Origin: a virus
DNA: 54,160 nt
IMG/VR virus record: IMGVR_UViG_3300032323_000448
Coordinates: 1-54,160 of that record
Direction: 5' to 3' (one strand)
Of this stretch, positions 24,970-26,195 are shown one piece after another (position 1 is the stretch's first letter; every line of letters begins with the position of its first letter). The notes under the pieces are model-generated. The model worked only from the letters and a program-made list of their open reading frames with translations. It did not search any database and was not told the DNA's origin. The translations under genes and the position numbers were made by a program.

Positions 24970-25307
24970 AGCGCCCCCATCAAAGCGAACGCAGTGCGGA
25001 TGCAATGCGAACGCATAGCGATTGAACCATCACGGCTGGGGACTGGTGGGCATTCCTGTATGGGCGGGCCAGTGGTATGTACCCGCTTGGACTTCCCTGA
25101 CTAGCCAATCCCCATGCGTAATAGTCCCCGTCTCTCCGGGGCGTCACGTCGTTCTATGGGCTACTGGCTCCAGACGTTCTCGTGCCGCAATTACTCACAA
25201 CCCACTTGGGCCAGACCCCGTGTACCGGCTGGACGGCAACCGCCTCAAGGGCGATTGGGGAATCTCAACAACAGTGTCGTCACGCTGGGGAATATAGCTC
25301 ACCAGCA
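24970..25307 (-). other. Noncoding stretch with inverted repeats
   Basis: No frame here looks coding on either strand. It holds the 12-bp palindrome ATGCGAACGCAT at 25005..25016, a 9-bp stem (GGGGATTGG with CCAGTCCCC, one G-T pair) closing a 76-base segment at 25038..25113 with an inner GCGGG/CCCGC hairpin, and a CCCCG-TCTCTC-CGGGG hairpin near 25126..25141. The 76-base segment is tRNA-sized but has no T-arm motif. It may be part of a leader RNA for the genes to its left; that is inference. Confidence 0.5.
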
Positions 25308-25622: not shown

Positions 25623-26011
25623 AGCCTTCCAATTGATTAGCAGATTCAGGAAACTGTGGCAAAGGAATGCCTACCCGACCAAAGCCAGGAGGCACACCTT
25701 CCAACCGATCCCTTCATCGAGGTTCCCAGTGGACCAGCCCGTAGCAATGCCGGCTGGCTTGCCGAGCTTTCCCCCCATTGCGGGGTCTGCTGGGACTCGG
25801 CAACCTCGCTGGCTGGTCAGCCGGACTTGAACCGACTGGGCCATCAAGGCGTGTATGCCCCCACTGCGCCTGCATCTTCTGTGCGCTCTCGCCCCAGGTC
25901 AGAACGTTGTAGGCCCGGTGGACTGCGCCCTACGCCTTGCGGCTTCCTGCGCTTCCCTCATGCCGGCCCATAACCCGATAGACCCCTAGAGCAAGGTCGC
26001 GGCCACAAAGC
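25623..26011 (-). other. Hairpin-rich noncoding stretch between the structured RNA and DUF5710 gene
   Basis: Apart from the interrupted Ash-like frame, no coding pattern is seen. Minus-strand RNA could form an 8-bp stem TTGCCGAG/CTCGGCAA enclosing CCCC-GCAAT-GGGG (about 25753..25797), a GGCT-GACC-AGCC hairpin near 25812..25823, and a CCAGCC/GGCTGG hairpin near 25727..25750. It is probably a long structured leader in front of the DUF5710 gene or the remains of an immunity-like region. Confidence 0.45.
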
Positions 26012-26169
26012 AAAAAACCCATTGGTGAACGAGCTTTGGGCTTGGTTGCCGCATACCCGTAGTGCCATACCACGTACAAGTAGCTTTGACGAAGCCCGCT
26101 CACCAATGGGTTCGCGGATGTCGCTGTAATGGAGCTACGACGGGTTACCAAGCCGTCGATGAGCTGCAT
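25714..26169 (-). pseudogene. Degenerate Ash-like reading frame interrupted by an amber codon
   Basis: One minus-strand frame reads PMGFLLCG, LGVYRVMGRHEGSAGSRKA, then TAG (25930..25932), then AVHRAYNVLTWGESAQK and on to TGA at 25714. This phrase order resembles the phage Ash protein family as I remember it, where a Gln codon would follow RKA; CAG to TAG is one base. The upper half coincides with the structured RNA at 26012..26161, and its only ATG overlaps that RNA's -10 box. The frame may therefore be a spurious translation of an RNA element rather than a former gene. Confidence 0.4.
26012..26161 (-). ncRNA. Putative structured phage small RNA (about 150 nt)
   Basis: A compact unit with promoter, fold and U-tract. 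Transcription would start near 26161 after the -10 box. A 5' hairpin CGACGG/CCGTCG (26138..26158, 9-nt loop) is followed by a 13-bp closing stem, AACCCATTGGTGA at 26112..26100 with TCACCAATGGGTT at 26028..26016, running straight into six T (26017..26012). Inside it, GGGCTT pairs with AAGCCC and CGTGGT with ACTACG. Eight bases across the 5' hairpin loop (GGCTTGGT) can also pair with ACCAAGCC at 26046..26039. It may be related to C4/Ash-region antisense RNAs of phage immunity systems; that is inference. Confidence 0.62.
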
Positions 26170-26195
26170 TGTACAGAAGTCCCAGGGCGTGTCAA
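26168..26195 (-). promoter_or_regulatory. Consensus sigma70 promoter for the structured RNA
   Basis: Minus strand TTGACA (26195..26190), 16-base spacer, TACAAT (26173..26168): a perfect -35 and a 5-of-6 -10. It lies in the gap just after the 26208..26477 gene and points into the structured RNA. It is the best promoter match found in the window. No protein start follows with a ribosome site. Confidence 0.75.

Follow-up and report, generated by a model that had tools for sequence, protein, structure and literature searches.

Phages and prophages encode the large ornate RNAs GOLLD and ROOL, frequently close to a tRNA gene (tRNA-Met stands upstream of GOLLD env-38). Pseudoknots and kissing loops shape both into elaborate structures; GOLLD has one conserved and one variable region, and these RNAs of unknown function can form large particles (PMC12286853). 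In phage HK022, the structured put RNA stands at the 5′ end of early transcripts (PMC9378689). Here we describe a locus in a stretch of 54,160 nucleotides of viral DNA (IMG/VR record IMGVR_UViG_3300032323_000448, positions 1 to 54,160; hereafter the window), in which a minus-strand segment (26195 to 26012) holds a sigma70-type promoter followed by an RNA of about 150 nt that we call module A. The window belongs to a tailed phage and encodes an Sf6-type TerS, a DUF5710 protein, a transglycosylase, and a primosomal-type protein.

Module A resembles GOLLD and ROOL in being phage-encoded (it was found on viral contigs only), in its pseudoknots and kissing loops, and in combining a conserved with a variable region, as GOLLD does. 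It differs from them in that its conserved domain is 5′ and a terminator-like stem stands at about 150 nt, and in that it was not found in the cellular genomes searched. Together with the downstream sequence, module B, it is mostly shorter than a typical GOLLD. The likeness to HK022 put is purely positional, and module A differs in having a terminator-like stem of its own. A resemblance to phi29 pRNA, which is not one of homology, lies in a phage RNA with paired loops whose window copy is beside the terminase, whereas module A is mostly away from the terminase. Variable complementary loops could set specificity in C4 antisense RNA and in the ColE1-type kissing RNAs RNAI and RNAII; in module A, by contrast, the two loops share one RNA and covary. 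A difference common to all of these except put is that module A has no Rfam match: Rfam 15, which holds C4 antisense RNA, GOLLD, ROOL, and others, gave none at gathering in the whole window, and at E ≤ 10 the local region yielded chance matches only. The suggestion in an earlier note, made from the window sequence, of C4 antisense RNA or another catalogued phage RNA was thus not borne out. The RNA family is absent from Rfam; preprints and most subscription papers lay outside our literature search, and an earlier description is possible there.

The elements that the earlier note had read from the sequence, namely a promoter (TTGACA-16-TACAAT), a 5′ hairpin (CGACGG/CCGTCG), a closing stem, and six T (26017 to 26012), are all present (Table 1), although the closing stem, P2, proved to be about 21 to 22 bp with two G-U pairs included, and not 13 bp, before it runs into U6. 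Promoter, GC-rich stem, and U-tract flank noncoding RNA, which is the layout of an sRNA with an intrinsic terminator, as judged from the sequence, the fold, and the relatives. A promoter match of at least 9 of 12 was seen in 83% of 96 relatives, compared with 5% of random windows, and the −10 element stopped 2 to 3 nt short of the model start in 81 of the 96. The position of the promoter is as constant as the RNA. The minimum free energy of module A was −68.9 kcal/mol, whereas 200 dinucleotide shuffles averaged −45.0 ± 3.7 and none equaled it. The covariance model used here, R1, was built from 44 window-type sequences, with the window itself included. No tRNA was found in the window, in agreement with the earlier statement that the RNA is not one.

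Table 1. Coordinates of promoter, RNA modules, helices, and pseudoknot strands at the locus (window positions)
Feature	Position	Strand	Details	Basis
Sigma70-type promoter	26168–26195	−	TTGACA 26195–26190, 16-nt spacer, TACAAT 26173–26168	Sequence; position and match in relatives
Module A (~150-nt double-pseudoknot RNA domain)	26012–26164	−		Covariance model R1, 159.8 bits, E 2e-39 (R1 E-values are rough); fold z −6.4
P1 hairpin	26138–26158	−	CGACGG 26158–26153 / CCGTCG 26143–26138, loop CTTGGTAAC	6/6 pairs double-changed in relatives
PK1 5′ strand, UUGGU in P1 loop	26147–26151	−	Partner ACCAA	
P1b mini-hairpin	26123–26135	−	GCT 26135–26133 / AGC 26125–26123; loop is the PK2 5′ side	
PK2 5′ strand, CCA(U)UAC	26126–26132	−	Kisses GUAUGG; one bulged U in the window, read by eye	
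P2 closing stem, 5′ arm	26092–26112	−	AACCCATTGGTGAGCGGGCTT	Fold and alignment
P3 inner hairpin	26054–26082	−	Outer stem, then a 3-bp inner stem at the base of the PK2 hexaloop	Alignment
PK2 3′ strand, GUAUGG in P3 hexaloop	26065–26070	−		Covariation in relatives
PK1 3′ strand, ACCAA	26042–26046	−		Alignment and other families
P2 closing stem, 3′ arm	26016–26036	−	AAGCTCGTTCACCAATGGGTT	Fold and alignment
U6 tract after P2, intrinsic-terminator-like	26012–26017	−		Sequence; T-run ≥4 in relatives listed
Tail GCCGCG after U-tract	25998–26003	−	May pair back with GCGGC 26052–26048 of module A	
Module B, second structured noncoding stretch	25640–26011	−	Extends almost to the start of DUF5710; 3′ boundary uncertain	

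From 5′ to 3′, module A consists of P1, P1b, the 5′ arm of P2, the conserved GGGCUUCGUCAAAGC, P3, the conserved GCGGCAACCAAGCC, the 3′ arm of P2, and the U-run. Its stems covary among relatives, a check that the earlier note had called for. In a MAFFT alignment, 94.4% of cells were paired and 25 of 49 pairs had changed on both sides (254 cells), with a covariation score of 0.319 against 0.113 ± 0.006 for shuffles; none of 500 shuffles did as well, and the score was far above that of slid versions. The P1b stem alternates in relatives between GUU/AAC, GCA/UGC, and GCU/AGC, the lower half of P2 shows compensated variation with G-U nearly absent, and in P3 double-sided changes were found at four of the five outer pairs and at two of the three inner ones. 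Three independent families show covariation, which strongly backs a structured RNA under a promoter of its own. A 91-amino acid mechanical frame overlaps module A, but RNA length among relatives changes by one-base steps, which rules out a conserved protein frame. Covariation already refutes a chance structure or a coding stretch, which we regard, given also the position of the promoter and these length steps, as having a negligible probability.

Two pseudoknots were found, in support of the pseudoknot that the earlier note had offered as one outcome of alternative pairing. PK1, UUGGU/ACCAA (alignment columns 15 to 19 with 129 to 133), is nearly invariant in the window's family, and the same position is complementary by eye in the other families, as UGGC/GCCA, as UGACG/CGUCA or UGACA/UGUCA, and as GUCGAAACC/GGUUUCGAC together with compensated variants. 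PK2 is a 6-bp kiss between the loops of P1b and P3 that covaries in 91 relatives. Across these 91 parsed sequences, 531 of 546 cells were Watson-Crick (97%) and 11 were G-U, and the helix is hypervariable, with 61 distinct hexamers, whereas P1 occurs in 29 versions and lower P2 in 19. The equivalent helix measured 7.5 bp with its own partner and 3.7 bp with shuffled partners in family 2, and 9.0 and 4.6 bp, respectively, in family 5. The window and loci L002 to L005, whose TerL proteins are 98 to 99% identical, all differ in PK2 sequence, which may reflect recombination, unconstrained drift, or selection for difference. One copy (L189:1060-1209, minus strand) has mismatched PK2 strands and no recognizable module B, and resembles a broken recombinant. 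A shorter variant of module A, in which PK1 is strongly compensated and a clean U-run is lacking, stands behind terL in L048, L052, L057, L060, and L062.

The other outcome proposed earlier, a switch through an 8-bp pairing of GGCTTGGT with ACCAAGCC, fared less well. The pairing is present in the window, but its third letter is C, A, or T in relatives without compensation; the loop half, UUGGU/ACCAA, is kept, and the half that would open P1 is not. A switch by this route is unsupported because the P1-opening half lacks covariation. A non-exhaustive search saw no mutually exclusive conserved pairing of terminator and antiterminator. Measured against a riboswitch or attenuator leader, the 8-bp alternative is not conserved, and the genes downstream belong to no conserved regulated class.

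The RNA recurs among uncultured phages; well above one hundred sequences carry it. A search with the TerL of the window returned 80 loci, and the RNA is present in eight of these. Pattern scans of IMG/VR on two conserved cores gave at least 120 stretches each, and a scan for a third family, family 5, gave at least 51 contigs. After removal of chance matches, there were at least 98 distinct sequences in the window's family, at least 94 parsed sequences in family 2, and at least 40 in family 5; these counts are lower bounds because the sequences were gathered with exact patterns. Families 2 and 5 have the architecture of the window's family with unrelated sequence, and R1 finds no family 2 members; what unites the families is therefore architecture and common B modules, not sequence. 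Each of the 17 window-type contigs scanned with R1 held a single true copy, extra matches being weak reverse-strand shadows, and nine family 2 contigs held no window-type copy. A pattern for a further variant (L048, L057, L060, and L062) returned 3 contigs only. In 84,980 cellular genomes there were 11 pattern matches, none of which kept the closing stem; R1, run without a positive control, gave no match in 300 genomes of one order; and blastn against isolate phages and plasmids returned chance matches only.

We surveyed the neighbors of the RNA in 238 loci, naming genes by eye. Divergent recombination genes were common, with DUF1071/ERF-like genes in 117 loci and YqaJ-like exonucleases in 50, alongside NinB-, RusA-, and RuvC-like genes and methyltransferases. 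No neighboring gene was conserved across the surveyed loci, and the downstream genes are diverse and mutually unrelated. Of 165 copies, about 150 are followed by a codirectional gene and about 66 are preceded by a divergent one. The description of the RNA as lying outside the protein operons holds only in part, as it sits between terL and DUF5710 within a codirectional block. Of the 16 tRNA genes that ARAGORN identified in the loci, 7 are on the same strand as module A and within 520 nt upstream of it; most copies are without a tRNA gene. A tRNA-like 3′ end (T arm and CCA) that ARAGORN missed lies about 200 to 300 nt upstream of module A in L087. Behind DUF5710, at 25006 to 25307 of the window, about 300 bases have no evident gene, and GCTATATTCCCCAGCGTGACGACACT there is partly common to L003. 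A replication origin, suggested by a promoter RNA with a G-rich end and divergent recombination genes, found no support in the GC skew of the window, which has no clear turn there.

The same survey bears on a packaging RNA analogous to phi29 pRNA, whose hypervariable loops would pair between molecules on the terminase motor. Module A stands directly behind terL in the window and some relatives and directly before terS in L038, and its kissing loops have private sequences, all of which would suit such a role. Only 31 of the 238 loci, however, have TerL nearby, and in L006 to L014, close TerL relatives, the 800 nt behind terL hold no such RNA. As there is no constant association with packaging motor genes, we dropped this explanation, which we consider very improbable.

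The U-run is separated from the next gene by about 130 to more than 1,000 bases of structured DNA. Among 182 copies with enough sequence, this downstream stretch is common to at least two other loci in 179, and 3 have no recognizable module B (e.g., L105 and L189). Module B comes in several types, the same types stand behind family 1 (the window's family) and family 2 A modules, and L079 and L038, which have other A variants, also carry known types as read by eye. In the window, a module B helix of 10 to 11 bp (25995-25986 / 25897-25888) covaries in 14 relatives listed. G-U is favored over A-C in module B helices; since G-U pairs fit the sense strand, we read module B in the sense of module A. 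The self-contained RNA envisaged by the earlier note is therefore doubtful: nearly all copies run on into a second structured module of the same sense, and the RNA may extend past the U-tract. A helix between the tail behind the U-tract and module A is suggestive only, as the complementarity is only 2 SD above shuffles, and compensatory examples exist. In the commonest type, the conserved end of module B falls mostly some 10 to 60 nt before a start codon. Inside module B, at 25790 to 25830 (minus strand), the window has a T-arm-like GTCGGTTCAAGTCCGGC, and T-loop-like motifs occupy the same place in the related B modules of L084 and L098.

One type of module B could be matched to a known RNA. 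Betaproteobacteria-1 RNA (RF02932) is the module B directly behind module A at L087:1481-1598 (minus strand, 101 bits) and at L057:4845-4975 (plus strand, 64 bits). It is comparable in its position as a module B and is a different RNA from module A, and its model matched neither module of the window. A bacterial genome, G289, has three RF02932 matches (L334:1501-1617, L340, and L341), two over the cut-off and one below, and module A is absent before RF02932 in L334 and L341. Betaproteobacteria-1 RNA reportedly comes from a 2017 paper; a search by name, in which preprints and most subscription papers lay outside the scope, found no paper on it.

On balance, we think that module A is probably the 5′ domain of a modular noncoding RNA specific to phages, with the B types as exchangeable structured modules. 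A promoter stands at a fixed distance from a compact domain, which two pseudoknots hold together and a terminator-like stem closes; from this promoter, polymerase would make a short form that ends at the U-tract and, on read-through, a long A+B form. The product would work as RNA, and not as message, during infection. The conserved core GGGCUUCGUCAAAGC ... GCGGCAACCAAGCC would most likely be shown to a host or phage partner, or the RNA might assemble with its own copies, and module B would carry an exchangeable second activity. Counting against this modular RNA are the 3 of 182 copies without recognizable module B, the statistically weak helix between tail and module A, and the codirectional next gene and often divergent previous gene, an arrangement expected of a cis leader too; moreover, a U-tract after so stable a stem should end most transcripts, which makes A+B as a single RNA tentative. 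A second explanation is a stand-alone, trans-acting sRNA of about 150 nt that ends at U6, the DNA behind it being a separate RNA or element at a shared accessory site. Promoter and terminator-like end lie at a fixed distance in three families, and the few copies without module B (L105, L189) would fit as well. Yet the common, mosaic downstream sequence of 179 of 182 copies speaks against it, there is no space for a second promoter between the U-tract and module B, and we judge an sRNA of this kind unlikely.

A cis-acting leader, an attenuator or a put-like antiterminator heading a phage operon, is a possible but more tentative explanation. The fold of module A would be complete as polymerase meets the U-tract and would decide transcription of module B and the genes that follow. 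Module A starts right at its promoter, its terminator-like stem is conserved, and HK022 put shows that nascent phage RNA can act so (PMC9378689). The ratio of codirectional to other downstream genes (about 150:15), often with a divergent gene upstream, and the closeness of the commonest module B type to start codons keep this leader alive, although codirectional blocks are usual in phages anyway. We place the modular noncoding RNA, whose setting is closest to that of GOLLD and ROOL (PMC12286853), ahead of the cis-acting leader because the genes that follow have no relation to one another, a non-exhaustive search showed no conserved antiterminator pairing that would compete, and one type of module B exists as an RNA without module A in bacteria.

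Within the modular noncoding RNA, the kissing loops of PK2 combine free turnover with strict complementarity, which fits either a structural lock indifferent to its letters or a self-recognition barcode. A more speculative and rather unlikely extension is that A+B is a large, self-assembling modular phage RNA in which the loops would pair between molecules as a private barcode, each phage's RNA recognizing its own kind.

The locus adds an uncatalogued and very common structured RNA to environmental phages. The modular build gives Betaproteobacteria-1 (RF02932), an orphan RNA of bacteria, a phage context. The covariation is strong enough for structure work to start at once, and loops that change freely yet always match pose a testable question, lock versus barcode. 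If the barcode were true, such an RNA would serve particle assembly or exclusion between co-infecting phages.
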